The position numbers and the translations under genes are program-made. A stretch of DNA of 64,000 nucleotides from Aptenodytes patagonicus (taxonomy: Eukaryota; Chordata; Aves; Sphenisciformes; Spheniscidae), in assembly GCF_965638725.1 (NCBI RefSeq), contig NC_134974.1, forward strand, positions 1,200,143 through 1,264,142, read 5' to 3'. Shown one piece after another: positions 6,014-64,000 of this stretch; positions within the stretch are counted from its first letter, which is position 1, and each line of letters begins with the position of its first letter. The notes under the pieces were generated by a model. It ran no database searches, was not told the DNA's origin, and was given only the letters and a program-made list of their open reading frames with translations.

Positions 6014-6602
6014 GCCCGTGGCCCCCCATAAAACCCCAAGCCCTTCACCCCCATCAACACCAAATCCCTTGGTCCCCCAAACCCTTGGACCCCATAAATT
6101 CCAAATCCTTGGCCCTAGAAATTCCAACCCCCCTGACCTCACAGATCCAAAACCCTTGGCCCCATAACCCCAAAACCTCGGCCCCACAAACCCCAAACCC
6201 TTTGTCCCATAGACCCCAAATCCTTGGCCCCCACAAACTCCAAGCCCTTGGCCCTATAAACCCCAAAACCTTGGCCCCGCAAATCACAAACCCTTGGCCC
6301 CATTAGACTCCAAGCTGTTTGTCCCATAAATCCCGAAAGCTCGGCCTCACAGATCCCAAACCCTCGGCTCCATAAAGCCCAAACCCTTGGCCCCACAGCC
6401 CCCAAATCTCTGGCCCTATAAACCCCAAACCCTTGGCCCCCCAAACCCCAAATCCATGGCCCCCCCTAAACTCCAAGCCCTTGGCCCCTCAAACCCCGAA
6501 CCCTTGGCCCCCATAAACCCCGAGTCCTTGACCCCTCAAACCCCGAACCCTTGGCCCCATGGCCCCTAAACCCATGGCCCCCACCAACCCCAAGCCCTTG
6601 TC
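6014..6602. repeat. Minisatellite, 23-24 bp unit, about 24 copies
   Basis: Diverged head-to-tail copies whose plus-strand unit starts near ATAAACCCC and ends near CTTGGCCCC. Copy length is 22-25 bp and point differences occur throughout. The minus strand is G-rich, with GGGTTT and GGGGTTTATGGGG strings. It lies a few hundred bases past the likely VANGL2 polyadenylation site, so polymerase leaving VANGL2 would read the C-rich strand as template and produce G-rich RNA. Confidence 0.9.
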
Positions 6603-8809: not shown

Positions 8810-11800
8810 TCACACGGAGGTCTCTGACTGCAGCCTCATGACGAACTTGTGCGACTTGGGGTCCACAAACTCCTCCGAGAGCTTGAAGAAAGGGATCTTC
8901 TTGGTGCTCACCACGAGGCTGAAGTCCTGGCGTTTCAGCACGAAGACCACCCCGTCTTTCAGGCCGTTCGTCACCGGCTCCTCGCTGACCAGCGTCCACT
9001 GCTTGGCCAGCCAGCGGTCCTTGTGGTACTGGATGGTGGGTCCGGCCGTCAGGTACCGCTCAAGGAACGCCTTGGAGGAGGGAAAGGACACGTGAACGTT
9101 GCCTTCCTATGGCTCAGCCTATTTTTTTTTTTGCAGCCTCAAGCTGCTCGGCAGGTCCTGCAGGAAAAACATCCCCGCACGGCCGGTTCCCATCGCTGCG
9201 CGTTGCTCCCTTGGGGTTACACCCGCTTTTCTGGCTTTATCCCCCCAACCCCTTGTCCTCTCGGGGGGATGCTCTCACATGGCGGGGAAAAAAAACCCCC
9301 ACCCAAGTCCTCACACTCCAGACCAAGCCCTCGGGCAAACCTGGAGACCCGTCCCACCTCGCCGTGCCCCCCACGCACCTTGGGTGTCATGTCGTGGGTG
9401 ATGCAGAACTCGAGGTGCTGCAGGATGCTCTCCATGGTGTGGTAGGGCTGTTGCTTGGTGGTGCGCAGGTACTTCTGCATGGCCCGGGCCATGGAGGCGA
9501 AGATGGCCTGAGCTGCCTCCCGTGGGTCCATGATCTCCCGCGGGTTCTTCTGGTCCTCCTCCTGCAGCCGCTTGATGTGGGTGAAGGCTTCTTCTACCGC
9601 CACCACCAGCCTGCCGGGAGGAAAGCCATACGGACGTGGCTGCAGCGGGGCAGAGTCCGGCCGCGGGCAGGAGATCCCCTGGGGTTTGGGGGGAGCCACT
9701 CGCTGCCTGCCTACCTATGGATGGCAGGAACCCAGCTTCCACCCCAAAACGGTTTTGGGGGAGATCCAACAGCCGGGCTTGGGATGCGCTTCCCCGAGAG
9801 CAGGGACACCTCATCTTGGGGGGCTGGAGGTGACCCCAGGAGCGCCCCCTCCCTCCTGCCAGCACAGCCCAGGTCCTCACGGGAGTCCTGGGCTGGGCAC
9901 CCAATGGAGCACACAGCGATGGGGCACCCGGTGCCGCACGGAGCCCGGTCCCCGCCGCCGGCCCCGTACCTGGCACGGCGTTTCCGCACCCTGCGCTCGT
10001 GCTCTGCCTCCTCGTAGTAATACTCGTTGTGGCTGTTGTCGCGCCTCCGGGCAGCCGCCGCGATGACGGCCCGGGACTGGCCCGTGGAGTTGTTCGTTGT
10101 GTTTTCTGCAGGGAGAAGGGTGAGGTTAGAGAGGAGTTTGGGGGCTCCGGGGTGTCCGATGCTCCCCCTGCCCCACGGGCCAGGCTGCGGCGATCCCGCT
10201 CCGGGCTCTCCAGAGCCGAGAGGAGCCTCCGGAGAGGAAAACACAGGGATGGGGAAGGGAAGGAGGAGAGAGAACGAGAGGAGAAGCCAAGGGAAGGGGA
10301 GCTCACCCTCGCCGAGGGAATAGACTTTAAACCCGGACATTTTCTTGGACAGGACGGATTTTGGCAGGTTGAGGAGGGCAGGGTTGTAGACCGGGAAATC
10401 GTGGTAATAGTTCTCCAGGATCCACACGGCTGCTCGCTGGATGCTGCAGGGAGACACAGCCGGGCACGGCGGGGGGGCACAGAGAGCCGGTTAGCACCGC
10501 GCTGAGGGCCGGGGGCAGACACAGCCGGGGCAGGACGAGGAGGGAGGGACAGACAGCGGCGTGGCACTGCAGGGACGTCTCATCCCGTGGAGGGAGCGGG
10601 GCTGTACCCGCTGCGGGGCACACTCGCAGCTCCTCCGGCCGGCTGATGCCGGGGTGCCACGGAGGGCAGCGGCGTGGGCACAACCGCTGGTGAATACAGG
10701 TGTGCATGTGCAGACGCGCACCCGTGAAAGCACATGCCTGAACGCATGTGCACATATGAACGTGCACACGCACCACTGCACGTCCACATATGAACGTGCA
10801 CACGCACCACTGCACGTCCACATCTGTACGTGCACACACGGATTTTATGGTTGGCCTTGACAACCTTAAAGGTCTTTTCCAACACAAATGATTCTATGAA
10901 TGTCCACGCATCAACGCCCGTGCACACACGCACGTGCACATGCACAAACATGGGACACCCCCCCCCCCCCCAGCACCCCCGTACCTGAGATGGCCGACGT
11001 TGTAGAAGCGGCTGGCCCCGTCGGCGGAGCGGACGGCCTTGAGGGTGAACTGGGGCTGGAGCTGGCGCAGCTCGAGCAGCACCACGGCCAGGTAGTGCAC
11101 GAAGAGCAGCGCGTCCACCAGCGAGACGGCGTACTGCACCACCCCCTGGTAGTTGCGGTCCCGCGAGTCCAGGATCCGCACGCCGTAGAAAAGCCAGTAG
11201 GAGACGACGAGGAGGAAGACAAGCACCATAAGCAACGCTCGGAAGACGAAGACGCGAGGGAAGAAGGCTTTGGGGCGACGGAAGAAGAGAGCCCAGCTGC
11301 CCAGCAGGAGGATGAGGAGTTTGAAGGCCACGGAGATGAAGAGCCCCTCGCAGGGTGTCCCGCAGGGCTCCAGCTCCTCCCGCCACAGCAGCTGGGGCAG
11401 GAGCATGAAGGCGAGGGGTGTGAGGAAGGCAAGCAGCGCCAGCGCCCCGGCCAGCGAGACGCCCAGGTGCCGGGAGCAGTCCAGGTGGGCGCTGTCCTCC
11501 ATGTCCTTGGTGATGCGGGTGATGTCATCGTGCGAGATGCTGTGCTCTGACGTCCCCGTCACCACCGTGGTGGTCTCGCCCCAGTTGTCATCCTGGGGAG
11601 GGCGGATGGGAGGGTTACATGGGGGATGGCTCCGTGTCCCCCCCGTCCCCAGCGCCCCGGGGGGCTGCCAGCCACGCCGGACCCCCACCCCAACCCAACG
11701 CCAGCATCTCCCATCCACCAAACCTCAAAGCCCGGCGCGCTGCCTGGCGCCATCACCCCCATTTAGACGGCGGAAACCTCAGCCTGGGGTGAGGGGACGC

Positions 11801-24210: not shown

Positions 24211-27200
24211 TGGCCCGGCCCGGCCCGGCCAGGCTGGAGGGGTCCTGCCCTGTCTGAGCCCCGGCACAGCTCAGCCCATGTGTTTTGGGTCCCCCTGGGT
24301 CACCCCCCCCCCCCCCCCGCCGGTGTGTGCCCCATCAGGCGAGGCCCCAGGCGGGTGGAGTCCGGCAACATCCTCTCCGCAGCATCCAGAAACGCATGGT
24401 CCAGGCTGAGCTCGGTGAGAGCTGCTGGGTCAGAGAGAAGGGAGGGAAAGGGCAGCCAGAGCTGTAAGCTGGGGGAGGGAGGTCGGGGCACCTCGGGAGG
24501 GACCCCCCGAGTCTGGCCAGCTTGTCCCTCCTTTTTTTTATCGAGGGCCCTGGCTCTCGTGGAGGAGCCCGTCTAGGAGTCATCGTTGTGGCTCCTGCCC
24601 AGGGGTGCCCCATGCAGCTCAGCCAGTGACGCTCATCCCACCGTGTATTTTCCTACCGCCCTGCTGGGCTCCACGCTGCAGTTGTCATGGGGAAGCCCAG
24701 CTCCAGCCTGTTCCCTGAGGCGGCTTGAGCAGCCTCGGGGCTGCTCCAGGTCCCCCTCTGCCTCCAGGTATGAAATGGCAAGGAGACCCGATGCTGCATC
24801 CTACACCGGCCGTGGAGACTTGAGGGAGGTGGATCCCAGCCTGTGCTGGTCCTCTGGCTCTTGGCACAGAGCTGGGGGATCAGTGTCCCCCCCGGCCTTT
24901 TCACATAGCCTAATGGGCTGTGTGAGTCACTGGAGCAGCCTTGAGGTGTAACCTTGGGGGTGCAGGAGCTGTGGCCAAGTTTGGGTCCTTGCGACCCAGC
25001 AGGGCTTGAGGATCGCTGCTGGGTGTGGGCCCCCTCTGTTCTCCCTTCCCCCTGCAGCCAGCTGCCCCGGGCTGTCCTCTCGCTCCCGCTCCGGCTCCAG
25101 GAGTGATTAATGGGCCCTCGGAGCTCATTCCTGGCCAGCTGGGGTTGCTGGAGCCTCCCTGCCATCTGGGAAGGGCCGCATTGTTCCACCTTGTGATTTA
25201 CAGGGACGGTCCCCTCCCTCCGCACCCTGCTCTCAGGACAGAAGAGCCTGCCTGGCTCTGCAAGGCGCCTAGCCCTGTCCCACGTGGAGCACCTGGGATC
25301 AGCAGCGCACAGGGTGCTGGGCGCTTCCCATCCATCTCCTGGGGATGAAGGAGCCCCCAGAACCAGCTCTGTCTTGCCTTGTTCTTTGGAAACGACCTTC
25401 TGCAGAGCAAGGAAGACCCAGGGCCCTTGCAAAGTCCCCGTACACCTCCCTGAGCAGAGCGGCAGGCAGTCATGTCCCCTCACACCCGCCGGACCCCTCT
25501 CCTTGCCCAGAGCTGTCCCATCACCCTACACGCTAACAACCGGACCCCGGACAGGTCCAATGCCCATCAGTTCCAAGGCGTCATGGCCGGGCTTCCCGCT
25601 CTGCAGGGAGGGGGGCAGAGGCTCCGGGCAGATAACTCCGGAGATTAGGAGCCCTAGAAAGCAGCGTGCAGGGTGGCCAGCCTCTCCCTGCCCCGGGCAG
25701 GATCAGCAGCATCTAACCCATCCCCACAGATGTTCATCTGACCTGTCTGCAAGCCCTGGGGCGGCAGGCTGCCAGCGATCGCGCCAGACCCTCCTCGGCC
25801 CGTTGGCCCTCCTCTCCCAGCGCCACGCACTGCGGACCCTGCCTGGGGGGGACACACGTGGGTCCCAAACTGCCCCGCTGCACGCCCTCGTGCCCGGCTC
25901 TCACCACGCTGCTGTCTCTGGTCTCCGTCCAGATGGGCTCTTTATCTCTGCTACACGATCACCGGTGCGAGGCATCCGATGGCTCATTAGGTCCTGCTCC
26001 GTGTCTCGAAGGAAGGGATCAGATACGCACTTTATCTAGCAAGACCGTCAGCCCTTTTGGGCCGGGGCCCGTCTCTCCCAGCCACCCGGCTTTGATCGGC
26101 ATCGCGGCCTCGGGGGACCCTTGTGCTCTAAACCAAGCATAAAACAAGCATTTAAAAGGATGGGTCACGGCGGGTGCTTTAGGGAAGGTCCCATGTGTGC
26201 GCACGGGTGCCGTTTGCCTTCGTCCCTTGCACCGGTCCTGGTCCCAGCCCTGCCTGAGAGCTGCAGCGGGGTTTGCGGCAGGTCCCTTCACAGGGGACAG
26301 GGATGCTCCAGGGCCCGGCTGGCAGGGATGGGGTTCCCCAGCCTGGGGGGGTGACAGGGGTCTGGTGTGAGCTTGCAGGGCCCCGTCCTGGGGACCCAGC
26401 AGATGGCACTGCCGCCTCGCGCAGGCGAGCTGGGGACACAGCTGCTGCCCACGGTGACATCCCCAGAGGAGCAGGGCACACACAGGCGGCCTGGCCCTGG
26501 GGCAGCAGGCTGAGACAAGGCGGGGGCCTTCCCCCTTCCCAACCCGGGGTGTCACGTCCTGCCCCGGCTACTCCTTTTTGGGACATGGAAGGGAGCCAGC
26601 AGCCATCCCCACCTCGTCGCTCCCGGGGCAGGGACACAGAAATGCCGCCGGGCAGAAGCAGCTGAGCGGTTTCACGCACGTCTGTTTATCTGCACCTTCA
26701 GGACTATTTTCCATGGGTATTTTTCAAATGAAAAGCCATTCCTCGTGCACGCACCTACCTGCGCGCCGGGTCCAGCGTCCTCCAGAGGCCGGGGAAGGGA
26801 TGGAGAGATGGAGATGTGTATGGGGAAGAAGAGAGAAGGAAATAGCTGTGGGAATAGAGAAAGAGTTGGGAAGTGGGTAGGAAAACGCTCAGGGAGGCAG
26901 AGGAGAAGCCGAGCTGCCCGTTACCCTGCCTGCCCGCAAGCACAAAGAGCAGGCAAGGGACCCAATCTGTCGGAGATGACAGCAAGGCCAGAACCAGCAT
27001 CTAAATTAGCATGAAGTGTTTCCATTGTGCAAGGCACAATGAGGACCATATGTCGGGGCCGGGGCTGGCAGCCGGGAACAACGGGCCCCGCAGAGGTTTG
27101 GGAGCCGCCGCCGCGGAGCTCACGCTGCCCTAAGCTGACTACCACCTCCCGGAGCGCACGTGGCCGGGGGTGGGATGGAGACGGCCGTCCCGCACAAACC

Positions 27201-28230
27201 TCCGTGCGTGGAGGCTGGCGCCGGAGGGGTTGGGAGCCGAGCTGGGTCTGGATGCAGGCGGTGGAGACACGGTGCATCCCAAGGGGCGAACACCGGGGAG
27301 AAATGCCTGAGCTGGGACAAAAAGGGGCCCTGGGAGCGCCGAGGTCCCCCAAGGTCCCCTCCCGTGCCCCACCAGCCGCTATTGCCCCTGCAGCCTGATG
27401 CTGCAGCCCGGCGCAGAGTCCCCCCGCTTCCTTCCCCGGCTCCCTCCCCCATGTTTATTATTTCCCCTTTGACGCATCTCTGCTGAGCCGAGCTGCAGCC
27501 GAGGCCAATTGATTATATGAAGAAATTTGGAGCAAGTCGGCGAACAGCTGCAACCTGCCCCCAGGGACGCGCGGGATCGGCGCAGACAAAGGAGATGAGC
27601 CGCAAACTTGCTTCCCCGCGTAGCTCGGGGTGGGCCGAGGAAGCGGGGAAAGCGCTGGGGGCTCGCAGGGGAGAGGGCTGGGGGACACGGAGAAGGGGAC
27701 CGCGGGGGCTCTGCTAGGCAGAGGTGCACGGTCAAGCGATGGGCGACTTTGGAGCCGGGACCGCACTGATTTCCCAGGGGTACGCAGGAGAGAGAAGGTG
27801 GTTTATTGGGTGTGTTTGGAGATGCTGATGTCTGGACCAGATGTCCTCATCCCTCTGCTGTCACCAGAAGGACCGGGCCATTCGGGGCCTGCTTGTCCCA
27901 GCAAACCCAAGCTGGGCTCAAACAGTGACTGCAGACCCGGGGAAAGCCAAAGACACGGCGTCCGCCCTGGCTCCGAGCAAGCCTGAGCCCAGCCCGTGCT
28001 GGCAGGACTCTTTGAGTGCCAAGAGGACACGTCCTGGTCCCTTGGCCGGAGCGGTGGGCGATGGCCTCCCTCCCACCGCCTCCTTTCACAGGCACGGCCA
28101 CAGCCATCAACTCCTGCGTGGGGAACCTGCCACCACCACGGAACAGCGCAAGGAAGAGATGGTTAAAAACAAGATTAAAAAAAAAAAAAAAGAAAGAAAA
28201 AGGGAAGCTGGGCACTCCAAGTTCAAGATC
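24211..28230. other. VANGL2-NHLH1 intergenic DNA
   Basis: No exon is recognised. Contents: an ancient repeat at about 26038-26155, an AT-rich island near 27450-27530 (with ccaattgattatatgaag) that could be a conserved regulatory element, and otherwise GC-rich unique sequence. It separates the VANGL2 5' end from the NHLH1 3' end; both genes run on the minus strand. Confidence 0.5.
26038..26155 (+). repeat. Ancient amniote interspersed repeat, diverged
   Basis: Contains, diverged, the order of motifs known from an old amniote SINE/L2-like repeat: a gactgtaagctctttggggcagggac-type start (here gaccgtcagcccttttgggc), then a tacagcgcctagcac-like middle. A clearer copy in the opposite direction lies at 46.52-46.69 kb. 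The family name is uncertain. Confidence 0.45.
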
Positions 28231-30853
28231 TCTCTTTTGCTGGCAGTTTAATTTATTTCCCCCTCCCCGACTTCCTTGTGAACTCATAAATAATAAATCC
28301 TTGCACAGCCTGAACAGCCAAGACAAACACACGCTGGGGCACACCGCGTACAAGGGTGGGTTGGTTGGTTTTCCGCCGTGGTCATTAGTTTTTTGTTTGT
28401 TTTCTAGTTTTCCTTTCCCAAAAGTGCACAACACAGCAAATAAATAATAACATTTATCAATAAATTAATTCAATAAATATCCTCGTGGCAGAGAGACGTG
28501 GCTGGTGAGTGGGAGGGGAAGGGTGGGCTGCCCTGCTCTGTCTTGTTCTGCCGCTGCCCCGCTGAGCGGTGCGGTGACGGGGGAGCCGGCTGCGGGGTCC
28601 GCTGCTCCGGCCCTCGGGGATCCCACATTCACTGGTGAGTCCTTGCGAGACAGAGGTAGCGATCGTTCTCCCTGCTTTTACGGGGAGGGGGAAAATGAGG
28701 TACGGAGCGAGGCGTCGCTGGGAGCTGGTGGCAAAGGCAGGGGTGGGATGGAGCCAGGAGGTCTGCGAGGTCCCGGGAAGCCCAGCTCGCAGGGCTCGGA
28801 CATTCAGCACGGGCAGCGGCCAGCACCTCGGGGGGGCAAAAAGCGGAGGGTGGGACCCTGGAGGGCAGAGCAGGGCAGGTGCTGCTGGGACCCCCTGCTC
28901 CGGCTCTGGGGGTTTGCTGGTGTTCGCAGGACATGGCACTGACCCTCTCACCATGAACGTTTCATCTCTGGCACACCGAAGTCCATCTCCCCCAGCACCT
29001 ACCCCACGGGCCGGACCACTGCCTGTCTCGCGGCGAGGCTCGACGAGGAGCAGCTCCAACTCATTCCCCGTGGGCCAGGCTGTGCCTCTGCTCCCGGCCC
29101 GGAGCGTTGGCTCTAAGCACAGTCAGTGGTTTCTGCGCGGTCCTGGTCCCCAGCCCGGGCTCTGCTTGTGCTCTTGCCACTGCCAGTGCAAAATTAACTC
29201 TTAAAACAAACACACACACCCATAAAACAAGGCAAAACATTCACTCTCGCAACGAGCTTTCCCCAGCCTCAGCGTGCCCTTGCTGGTGAAAAGGCTGCTC
29301 GGCTCTGCTTTCCCTTCCCGCTCCCCTCCCTCTCCCAAAGTGCTGATCCGTGTTAGGGGGGGCCGGGGAGAGCCCCGGCTGCTGGAAGCTGGGCAAAGGG
29401 GCCGTGCCTGCTTCCTCCCCTCTCCAACCCCGCTGCCCTGCAAGCCGCAGGTAAAGTGCAGTTTACCCCAGCAGAGCGCGTGCTGTGAAAGGATCACGCT
29501 GCACCAGTGCCATACTGGTTTAAACGGGGGGGCCCGCGGCACCCCGGGGCGAAGCCTCTTTGCACATGAGCCCCGGCAGCACCAGCTGCGCTGCAGAGGA
29601 GGGACGCGGCGCCGGGGGAGCTGAGCGCTGACGTCCCCCCGTGCCGGGGCACGTGCCACGCTTGTGACCCCAGGCCTTTTTCACCAGGAGCACCGAAGGG
29701 GAGACAGAGGAAGAGTCGGGAGGGATGAAGGTCTGGTGCCCCGGGGTGGTCACGTCTGTGGGTGCAACGGGCCAGACCAGGGGGGCTTCACGCTCGTCGT
29801 GCACTAGTGCAAAGGAGGGTCGGGCAGCAAAGCCTGGGATGCACGGGTCTGGGGAGCAGAGTGCTGAGCTTCGGGGAGACCAGATGTGCAACGGAGGGGC
29901 TTGGAGAGACGCCGGGTGCTGCTCCAGCCTGGCATGGGAGCAGGGCCAGCGCTGCTCCGGGCACCTTGCAGGCAGCACGGTGAGCGAGCACGCCTCTCTG
30001 CTCCGTCTCGAGGGGAACCTGCCGCTGTTGTCCATGGAAAGCGTGGCCAGGTCCTGCCAGGTCTGCACCACACTTTGTGCTTCCTTTTGGGGTGTGAAAA
30101 GCCAGGGCAAACACAGAGGAGCCGCTCCGTGCCCAAGGATGCTCCTGGGCTGTGCTCCCTCCGCAGAGAGGACGGTCCTGACGTGGGCCTTTAAGTGCCC
30201 AGCGCGATGCCGGGGGCAGAGCGGCAGCAAACAGACAAAATGCCCAGACTGGCCATGCTGGTGGGGCGGCCGGTGGCAGAAGGCGCAGACAGACAGACGG
30301 ACAAGGCCCCGGGGATGCTTGGTGCTGCAGTGTTTCACAGGTCCATTTTTTTGTGGCTCGTATAAAAGAGGTGACACACAGACAGACTTGGGCTCAGCGG
30401 CTCCTGCTGCGGGTCAGGGAGCGGACGTGGCGGACAGACTGACGGATGTGGGCTCAGGATCCTGTAGGCAGTATCAGCGGGATGCGCAGCAGAAGGACGG
30501 ACAGAAGTTGGGAGCATACACGGCCAGCACAGGCTTCAGGCAGCAGATCCAGCAGGACAGACAGATGGCTGATGGACCAAACATCCAGCCTGACTCAGAC
30601 AGGAGGGAAAGACAGACGGACGTGGGCTTGGTGGTGGGGAAATACAGAACATAGTTCAGATAGGGGGTAGAGCAGACAGCTGGGGACTTGGTCCATTTGA
30701 ACAGACGGATGAACACAGGCACAGCATTTTGGATGCCCAACATGTGGTTCAGGTCATAGATGGACAGACGGACTTGAGCTCTTGGCTCAGATGCCCAGCA
30801 CATGTTCAGGTAGGAGATGCGGCAGACAGACAGACGGATGCAGGCTGGGCGGC
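28231..30853 (-). other. NHLH1: Probable NHLH1 3' UTR
   Basis: This extends from the NHLH1 stop to the first good minus-strand AATAAA at 28252-28257, which overlaps an ATTAAA and is followed by T-rich sequence. A long 3' UTR of about 2.6 kb fits the long NHLH1 transcripts known from mammals. The first 500 bases are the tandem array derived from the CDS end; an AU-rich island lies at 28436-28485. The 3' end is inferred from signals only. Confidence 0.5.
28436..28485 (-). promoter_or_regulatory. AU-rich island in the likely NHLH1 3' UTR
   Basis: Read in the NHLH1 direction it contains several ATTTATT strings (atatttattg, attatttatttg), the core of AU-rich elements that bind ELAV-type and decay proteins. 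The island is about 50 bases of nearly pure A/T inside a much richer GC context, which suggests selection. Whether it acts on mRNA stability is inference. Confidence 0.4.
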
Positions 30854-30897
30854 TCAGACGTCCAGCACGTGGTTCAGGTAGGAGATGTAGCAGATGG
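30391..30897 (-). repeat. Tandem array derived from the NHLH1 CDS end
   Basis: The first copy (30851-30897) is the end of the NHLH1 reading frame ([11 protein letters not shown] and stop). The second, at about 30784-30824, matches it over about 44 bases with roughly five substitutions and one single-base gap. Further diverged copies are seen at about 30733-30765, 30647-30679 and 30524-30563, with weaker ones near 30453 and 30391. Spacing is about 58-110 bp. Between copies runs a (GTCT/GTCC)n-like spacer (plus strand cagacagacggac). In the copies the frame and stops are not preserved, so they are not coding. Confidence 0.8.
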
Positions 30898-31258
30898 CCA
30901 GGCGGAGGATCTCAATCTTGGAGAGCTTCTTGTCCGGCGGCAGGGTGGGCAGCAGCTTCCGCAGCTCGGCGAAGGCCATGTTGAAGGCTTCGACGCGGAT
31001 GCGCTCCCGCGTGGCGTGGGCTGTCCGGTATTTGGCCGTGGCGCGCCGCCGGCGCCGCCGCTCCTCCCGACTCAGGTGCTGCAGGTCTTTCTTCACGGCC
31101 TCACCTGGCTCGGCTATCCGGGACTGAGCGCACAAGCCAACGCCGCCGGCGTCCTCCGCGCTGCCCGTGCGGCCGCCACCGCAGTCACTGAAGATGGACT
31201 CGGACTCGGAGTGTGTCGGGGGCAGGTCGATCTCTGTCTGGTCCGAATTGAGCATCAT
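30854..31258 (-). CDS. NHLH1: NHLH1 (HEN1/NSCL1), neuronal basic helix-loop-helix transcription factor
   Basis: Class II bHLH factor expressed in newly formed neurons; it binds E-boxes in the nucleus, probably with E-protein partners. One coding exon, 134 aa (human: 133 aa as recalled). The N-terminus MMLNSD and the motif [10 protein letters not shown] are family hallmarks. An arginine run (RRRRRR) at about residues 67-72 leads into the bHLH at about 76-128: basic region [13 protein letters not shown], then [20 protein letters not shown] and [17 protein letters not shown]. The end (VLDV) is complete. Residues 25-55 differ from mammals and are Gly/Ala-rich there, so they are the only fast-changing part. 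The ATG-ATG start at 31258 fits the family. The intron and 5' UTR exon lie further right. Confidence 0.97.
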
Positions 31259-34200
31259 CTTTGCGGAAGAGGGGTGGACAGAGAGACGGACGCTTCAGAG
31301 ATGTGGTGCGTCAGGAGGACAGACTGACCCAGGCACGATGTCGAAGCAAAACCGCTCTACTTTAAAGAGAAGGTCTCCGGATCACAGCAAGCCCCTGGCT
31401 ATTCTCCTCCTCTTCCTCCTCATCACACACAGTCTCCGCAAGGGAATTTCAAAATTTTCCCTTTTCCCCGGAGAACTCGTTGGGCGGGCGACAGCTTTCA
31501 CAATAAATAATGTAAGAAAGATGGCAGGATGCATATAAATAAAATAAATAAATAAATATCCTCTGCGCGCGTGTGTGCACAGAGACCGCGGGCTCTTCTG
31601 TGTAGCCGTGGCAGGACCCAGTTTCGGAGCCGTCAGGTGTCAGAGCCGAACTCCTTCCGCGTGCTCTAGAAAACAGAAGCACAGGGGCTCTCAGTACTGC
31701 CCGGCTCCCGGCGGACACGAGAGACGTAGCTAGAGAGCACGGCTGTTTGCTCCACCTGCCCTGCAGCGTTGGCCCCAGCTGGAGCAGGGGACAACCCGTC
31801 CCCGCCGGGCTGGGATGGGGCTCCGGGTCCCCGGTCACGGGCGGCGGAGAGGGAGCCGGTGGGGTGGCTCTGGGAGAAGGTGGAAGCCATTTCTCCTGGC
31901 TCTCCGGAGAGATGACAGGTGGTGGATGAGCGAAGGGGAAAAACAGACTGCGGGGGCGAGAGGAAGGGGGGCTTATTGTATACTAAATGAGCCCGTATGT
32001 CATGGATCCTGGCACCCCCGACATATGGAACCCAACACAGCTGCTTTGCTTGATGTGTCCAAATAGACGCTGGCTCCCCGCTCCCTCCGGGACGCTGCGC
32101 CGCCGGCCGGGAAAGCTGCCTCTCCTTTCCCTTCTCCCCCCCCCCCCCCAGCTTGCCTTCCCTGCGTGGCTCCGGCACGGGGGCCCCAGGCCCGCACAGA
32201 TGCCTCCGGCACCTGGGGAGCAGGTCTGGGAAAAGGCAGGTCTTGCTGCAGGCGCATCTTCCCCCCCGGGGAAGGGGAAGGGCTGGGGTGGAGCAGGGGA
32301 AGGGGAACAAACTTCAGATGGGGAAATGCTCCTGCTGGAAGAGATGGCAGCCTGGCTGGGAAGCCAGCCAGGCAGAGATGTACAACATATTACCTCTCTC
32401 AGGCCTGACAAGCTTGTAATGAGCCATACGACTGAGAAATGGAAACTAAACGAATATGGACAGGCGATGACTGGAAAGAAATAGCCCACATCCCGTTTTA
32501 AAAGACTGGCGGGGGGCAGAGCCCTTGATCTGTGTTTGCAGAAGCACTGCCCGAGAAACACAGGGAACCCCGTAAGCGCGTATAGAAACGTCTGCACAGC
32601 CTCTCTGAGGCCCCCCAAATGTTATGTGGCTGTTCCTTTGCATGCTTACACAAACACACGTGTACACACACACGTACACATATACCCACAGACACGCTTC
32701 CCAGCACATATGTGCAAATATTCCCAGTCAAAAACTCCTCTCCGAGAATCCCACGTCCCTTTATGGACAGTTATTTACACCCACGCTTGTAAACCTACCC
32801 CAGGTCAGGCCTCTCTGCGTGCACATGCACACACTCACCCTTGCACTGTGATATTCAGGTTTCACTAAAAAAATTAACCTGGACTTTTTTTCTCTCTAAC
32901 ACGAAACCTGTCAGCTCTGCGTGAGAGTACAAGCAAACCATCCAAATCCTAAACAAAAAGTTACTCTTGTGAAGCCCTTAGCCTGGAGATGATGGAAGGG
33001 CTGATGGAAACATGGCTTTCAGGATCCATGGAGATGCCCTCTCAAGGCTTTGAGCTCGCAATAAACTACACTGTCCTTAGGGCACGGCTGAGTTTGGTTT
33101 TGTGTTTAACTTGCTCTCCCCGCGATCAGCTTCAGAGACAAACCAGCCAGGGACCAAGAACCACGACCTACGCAGGAGTTTGTAGCTCAAGTTCCCGAAT
33201 TAGCCACATCTGCTGTAGCCATCCACTATAGCCGTGGCTCCTGCCCCTTGTTTAACCTTCTCCATTCCCCTCCCGCTTTAATTTCTTTTTGCCTTCCGCT
33301 CTTGCCCCTTTCCTGCAGATCTGGGACCTCCTTTCTGGTGCTCGGTGGCGGAGGGAGCAGTCCTGCCCTGCCGGCTGCTCTGCCCTCAGGAGTAGCATGT
33401 CCGCGGGTGAACACCACCCAAAGCAAGCCTGTGCCTGGCCGGCGAGCAGCGGCAGCCCTTCATGGCCAGCTTGAGACTTGTTGCCACGGTCGTGTTTCCC
33501 TGCGTGCTGGCGGTGCCGCCCCGCTCCCGCTCACAATAGCCGTCCCTGGAGCATCGCTCCCAGCCGCGGCGGCTCCCGGCAGCAGGGCAGGGCTGCTGCT
33601 CCAGCCGTGAGCGCAAGCTCCGGAGAGGCTGCAGCCGGGCCGGGAGAAGGAGGGAAGGTTGGCTCTGGGGTTGGACACGTGCCACGGCAGCTCTGCACTT
33701 TCAGCTCCTGGGCCGTGGCGAGGAGTCGGTGCGCGGACATCCAGGATCACGCTCACGTGTGCAGCTCCGTACCTGTGCGCGCAGCTTCTCTTTAAATACT
33801 CTCCCCCCTGCTCTTGGGGACGGGGAACTGCATTTGATCTCTTGCACTAGCTTAATCGCTCTTCTGTCTCCCTCTTATCCCGGCGCTGCTGCTCTGAAAA
33901 CAACAGGCCTGTTGTCCTCTTGCTCTGCAAACTCAGGTGCTGCCTCACCCGACCGGGGCCGTGCTGGAGGTGCAGTCCACACGCGGGTGAACCACCCCGG
34001 TAAGACACTGTGGAGCGGCTCCGCTGCCTCCTGGCCCCATCACTTCAGCACAGGGCAGGGAAGGAGGCAAACAACCGCCTCCTGTCCCCTCCTAGGACAC
34101 CAGCACCGAGGCACGAGCGTGTCACTTCATCCTGGAGTAGGAGAGGCTCCAAAAACTCCTTCTCCTTGGGCAGACGGGGATGGCGACCTGGCCCAGCAAC

Positions 34201-60383: not shown

Positions 60384-64000
<3,617 letters not shown>

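Follow-up and report, generated by a model that had tools for sequence, protein, structure and literature searches.

How does the end of a coding sequence come to be repeated in the sequence behind its stop codon, and can such a repeat alter the protein? The question is raised by the NHLH1 locus of Aptenodytes patagonicus, located in a window of 64,000 nt (the whole stretch of DNA that was analysed, to which all coordinates refer). A sequence-only reading of this window had described the beginning of the NHLH1 3' untranslated region (UTR) as a tandem array, with the end of the coding sequence (CDS) as its first unit and its source. In this study, we delimit the units of the array, evaluate the likeness of each of them to the CDS end and weigh the explanations that can be given for their origin.

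In the protein encoded at this locus, Pfam places an HLH domain at residues 78-128 of 134 (E 9e-21). The bHLH domain thus sits near the C-terminus. TAL1 is the top solved relative (E 1.9e-13). We provisionally take the gene to be NHLH1 (HEN1/NSCL1), and not its paralogue NHLH2, from the protein sequence and from the presence of COPA about 29 kb away. COPA is represented by an exon on the plus strand (60616-60726) with a match to coatomer subunit alpha in PDB (E 7.1e-33); a frame opening at 60384 on the same strand is presumably the COPA start. The closeness of COPA and NHLH1 agrees with the gene order of human chromosome 1. Short peptide patterns of COPA and nicastrin were matched in the window in three out of nine cases, all three at COPA, and nicastrin was not found by these patterns. 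No relatives of the NHLH1 protein were found in a collection of bacterial and archaeal genomes, which is not meant for vertebrates. Likewise, a viral contig (IMGVR_UViG_3300040971_000002, L001 3400-3690) gave a weak match of 31% to NHLH1 residues 21-107 (E 2e-6, among candidate stretches only), again in a collection not meant for vertebrates. Behind the NHLH1 stop, AATAAA first occurs at 28257 on the minus strand. If it is used, a 3' UTR of about 2.6 kb is possible, with the whole array inside.

The features of the locus are given below. Identities are counted over aligned letters. The p values refer to comparisons of 37 coding nt with each unit (3000 shuffles each) and are partly post hoc, since the unit bounds were drawn by eye.

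30854..31258, minus strand: NHLH1 coding sequence, a single open frame of 134 aa
30854..30894, minus strand: source segment, the CDS terminus of ~41 nt, which begins with TCTGC in codons 122-123 and runs to the stop
30822..30890, minus strand: U0, the CDS end with the first spacer, ending in GTCTGTCTGTCTGC
30763..30821, minus strand: U1, 31/36 against the CDS end with five transitions and one 1-nt gap, equalled by 0 of 3000 shuffles, spacer GTCCGTCTGTC
30670..30762, minus strand: U2, 26/35, equalled by 0 of 3000 shuffles, long (93 nt) with ~30 additional nt at its far end
30607..30669, minus strand: U3, 24/35, weak when taken singly (p 0.0047), its score of 24 being inside the window background
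30552..30606, minus strand: U4, 22/31, weak when taken singly (p 0.0050), alignment score at chance level
30488..30551, minus strand: U5, 27/36, p 0.0003
30432..30487, minus strand: U6, spacer alone, coding part p 0.49
30373..30431, minus strand: U7, spacer and a coding part of marginal likeness, 26/35 in an alignment with several gaps, p 0.032
30285..30372, minus strand: U8, the far end of the array, spacer alone, coding part p 0.33

Most units are 55-69 nt long. The CDS end itself contains a 9-nt near-duplication, CATCTGCTA CATCTCCTA, at 30878-30896 on the minus strand.

The repeat was established by alignment of the terminal 45 nt of the CDS to the following 1454 nt, of which the best eight separate matches were kept. 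Five of them keep the register of a repeat: 30826-30787 (score 50), 30771-30737 (30), 30676-30645 (24), 30605-30578 (16) and 30555-30520 (32). The other three, at 30569-30562 (16), 30186-30171 (15) and 30284-30273 (14), are at chance level. Among 2000 dinucleotide shuffles, none reached a score of 30 (maximum 29), 40 reached 24 and 1778 reached 16. Elsewhere in the window (43 + 43 segments, both strands) the top background scores were 25 and 26, and a match of score 24 would therefore not stand alone. Three copies, U1, U2 and U5, are beyond doubt, and U3 and U4 are backed by their place and spacing rather than by their score. The sequence-only reading had counted at least four recurrences downstream of the CDS end; the observation is confirmed on the minus strand once its bounds are corrected. 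Its figure of 86% for the nearest copy was exact (31/36 in U1).

Ungapped comparison recovered the same repeat. Positions 30872-30906 pair with 30804-30838 (CDS end and U1, 83% over 35 nt), and positions 30825-30894 (CDS end and spacer, U0) pair with 30607-30676 (U3, 70% over 70 nt). Which part of the gene was copied is evident from the CDS itself: the terminal 37-mer scores 46 against 30821..30285, compared with at most 22 for 332 non-overlapping CDS 37-mers. The source is therefore confined to the CDS terminus. Among 12,712 sampled 45-mers from both strands of the window, 71 have at least three good copies in the next 400 nt. These 71 fall at the NHLH1 array and at two other places, both of them arrays reported by TRF (6023-6600 and 10744-10837). 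The former is a minisatellite with a 23-nt unit, CCCCAAACCCTTGGCCCCACAAA, in about 22.6 copies at 6075-6600; the latter has a 34-nt unit in 2.8 copies with 93% matches.

At NHLH1, the output of TRF is limited to pieces whose units measure 4 to 17 nt. With score 30, score 60 and three further settings, it never grouped the CDS end with the ~65-nt units, an outcome that the sequence-only reading had itself named as refuting its claim. We set this failure aside because the alignments and their controls outweigh a threshold. It is reflected in the name, since an array of ~65-nt units that TRF does not report is better called a relic or degenerate minisatellite. As head-to-tail copies, U0, U1, U2 and U5 are firm, U3 and U4 are weak, and U6-U8 are recognised mainly by their spacer.

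The spacer consists of low-complexity sequence with a recurrent TCCGTCTGTC-like motif. Allowing up to two mismatches, this motif has 17 matches in 30853..30275, compared with a mean of 1.4 and a maximum of 7 in 2000 shuffles. The matches form nine clusters, separated by gaps of 66, 63, 89, 53, 64, 59, 60 and 85 nt (CV 0.18). Compared with uniformly placed clusters, this regularity has a P of 5e-5, the cluster centres having been picked by the analyst. From the nine clusters it follows that the array extends to about 30285, past the end at 30391 that had been proposed for it. The motif is common in the window (46 matches on the rest of the minus strand and 27 on the plus strand) but concentrated at the array. 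As low-complexity sequence the spacer could expand on its own, which bears on U6 and U8. Two further matches with one mismatch each lie on the minus strand at 31290 and 31327 (31281-31327), upstream of the NHLH1 start codon.

In which direction the copying went can be judged from several lines of evidence. As far as residue 132, the source segment can be aligned with TAL1 and Twist1, and the coding sequence is therefore the older one. For the conservation of the CDS end in all vertebrates, which the sequence-only reading had presumed, this family-level match stands in. The last residues of NHLH1 and NHLH2 are alike in other vertebrates. The accessible passages of PMC11703107 include none on the C-terminal sequence of NHLH1/2. 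At the positions in the copies that correspond to the two CpGs of the source segment, TG or CA is found in 7/12, CG in 2 and another dinucleotide in 3; without the marginal U7, TG or CA accounts for 7/10, CG for 1 and others for 2. This pattern fits a decay away from the CDS sequence. Transitions and transversions number 5/0, 5/4, 6/5, 8/1 and 3/6 in U1 to U5, respectively, an uneven excess. To judge by the sequences compared, copying likely proceeded from the CDS into the UTR. The alignments, the score of 46 against 22, the TAL1 and Twist1 alignment and the CpG pattern together uphold the description of the locus as a tandem array with the CDS end as first unit and source.

Divergence from the CDS end is 14% in U1 and at least 25% in U2-U5. 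The decay with distance claimed by the sequence-only reading is not monotonic, U5 (27/36) being better preserved than U3 or U4. U1 and U2 have GGGCAT in common where the CDS has GGACGT. Hence the copies do not all stem directly from the CDS, and at least one later duplication or exchange must have occurred inside the array. The longest exact match to the CDS end is 16 nt in U1, 11 nt in U2 and at most 7 nt in U3-U8.

Three other explanations have to be considered. The first is that expansion was confined to a TCTG-rich tract of the 3' UTR, whose resemblance to the CDS end would then be due to chance. The small units returned by TRF, the lack of a significant CDS match in U6 and U8 and a U3 score inside the window background would suit this explanation. 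Yet the 37 coding nt, from which the spacer is excluded, match U1, U2 and U5 at 0, 0 and 0.0003 of 3000 shuffles, and the rest of the CDS does not match the array. A chance likeness is already contradicted by U1 and U2, and we find it hardly credible. A live minisatellite, still exchanging with the CDS end and able to change the protein, would agree with the exact 16 nt in U1 and with the changes shared by U1 and U2, according to which duplication or exchange within the array did occur. Against this stand the divergence of the units, exact matches of no more than 16 nt and the retention of bHLH-family residues at the CDS end. We judge a live array very improbable. The suggestion that slippage or conversion could alter the protein end thus found no confirmation; the array looks like a fossil, and a present-day change of the protein end through it appears unlikely from these sequences.

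An improbable alternative is a functional 3' UTR element, in which repeated E-boxes or UCCGUCUGUC sites have been preserved by selection as targets of an RNA-binding protein or of a transcription factor, perhaps NHLH1. The sequence-only reading had proposed that the repeated spacer may bind RNA factors. The spacer motif is dense, with its 17 matches, and persists in the far units where the coding copy has been lost; one-mismatch motifs occur on the same strand upstream of the start codon; and the array has about double the window's density of CANNTG, with 6 in its 569 nt where the window rate of 5.05 per kb predicts about 2.9. However, TCTG tracts could renew themselves by slippage, the copies contain indels and altered spacing, and the E-boxes of U1 and U2 are explained by CpG decay. 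The copies had been said to repeat CACGTG/CATGTG. CACGTG occurs in the CDS only, while U1 indeed has CATGTG and U2 has CACATG. Transitions at the CpG of CACGTG give precisely these two sequences, both still CANNTG, and such decay is sufficient to account for them; the meaning ascribed to the E-boxes is not sustained. Nor does the RNA of the array favour a functional element: no structure was found, 19/20 shuffles fold equally well or better (z +1.9), and Rfam gave no match at gathering score in 27000-32500. By fold, Rfam and sequence, neither a function of the array's own nor an effect on the gene is evident. Pfam gave no match at E 0.01 for ten ORFs of the window, no tRNA was found, and the 3'-terminal motif of bird CR1 elements is absent.

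We therefore favour, with high confidence, an old and degenerate minisatellite, whose first unit combines the terminal ~41 nt of the NHLH1 CDS with the first ~30 nt of the 3' UTR. It would have been born by slippage, its coding unit held by selection and its UTR copies left to decay. At its birth, TCTGC in codons 122-123 may have mispaired with the TCTG run right after the stop, which would have duplicated the CDS end, the stop and the spacer in one step. With the first stop retained, the additional copy would fall into the UTR, harmless and with the protein unchanged. Later rounds of duplication may then have lengthened the array. The coding unit would have remained under purifying selection, and the UTR copies, presumably neutral, would have accumulated substitutions and indels.

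The CDS edge of the founding unit carries ATCTGCTAC (TCTGC), and the right edge of U0 is GTCTGTCTGTCTGC; the repeat they share is just 5 nt, and TCTG is common in the tract. In the 26-nt stretch at each junction TCTG is found in 8/8 cases and the exact TCTGC in 3/8 (U1, U3 and U6). This is weak evidence for mispairing because TCTG belongs to the spacer motif itself. An origin by mispairing between direct repeats is thus suggestive only, read as it is from the junction sequences.

A variant of this explanation, which we consider unlikely, is that the CDS end served as a protected master copy and seeded the UTR array repeatedly during a long period, so that the array would be a record of these events. 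The coding and spacer halves of the units were compared to test it, the prediction being that the spacer diverges twice as fast. The spacer appeared closer in 4/4 units (U1, U2, U3 and U5), in unreliable alignments with 7 to 11 gaps, and the comparison was dropped as too gapped. As far as it goes, the outcome runs against the master-copy prediction. If re-seeding did take place, the same architecture may occur in other genes whose stop is directly followed by a simple repeat.

VNTRs such as those of CEL and SLC6A3, situated in coding or in UTR sequence, are polymorphic. The NHLH1 array resembles them as a tandem repeat located at a gene's 3' end or close to it. Unlike them, it is much diverged and straddles the stop codon. 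For its possible origin, a close precedent is the model of Haber and Louis 1998, in which slippage, or else unequal crossing-over, at flanking direct repeats 5-10 bp long gives birth to minisatellites, as outlined in a passage of PMC3389668. As in this model, a sequence of ~65 nt with short direct repeats (TCTGC) on either side would have given rise to the tandem array at NHLH1. In contrast to the model as outlined there, one flanking repeat is inside the CDS and the unit carries a stop codon, which leaves one unit under selection and the others free. An array begun by mispairing at separated short repeats is likewise what the passages of PMC3389668 and PMC2820488 on the cited model describe. 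The model cited in these passages has an incomplete terminal unit; the array at NHLH1 is too decayed to be judged on this point. Chicken GGA25 is described as GC-rich and minisatellite-rich, and NHLH1 is not named in the main text of that report (PMC2275740). A narrow literature search found no published description of the present case.

The array is a modest curiosity. It offers a natural example that a minisatellite can start within coding sequence without harm to the protein. When the stop codon is part of the duplicated segment, the duplication stays silent, and the coding unit serves as a constant standard for measuring how far each copy has decayed.
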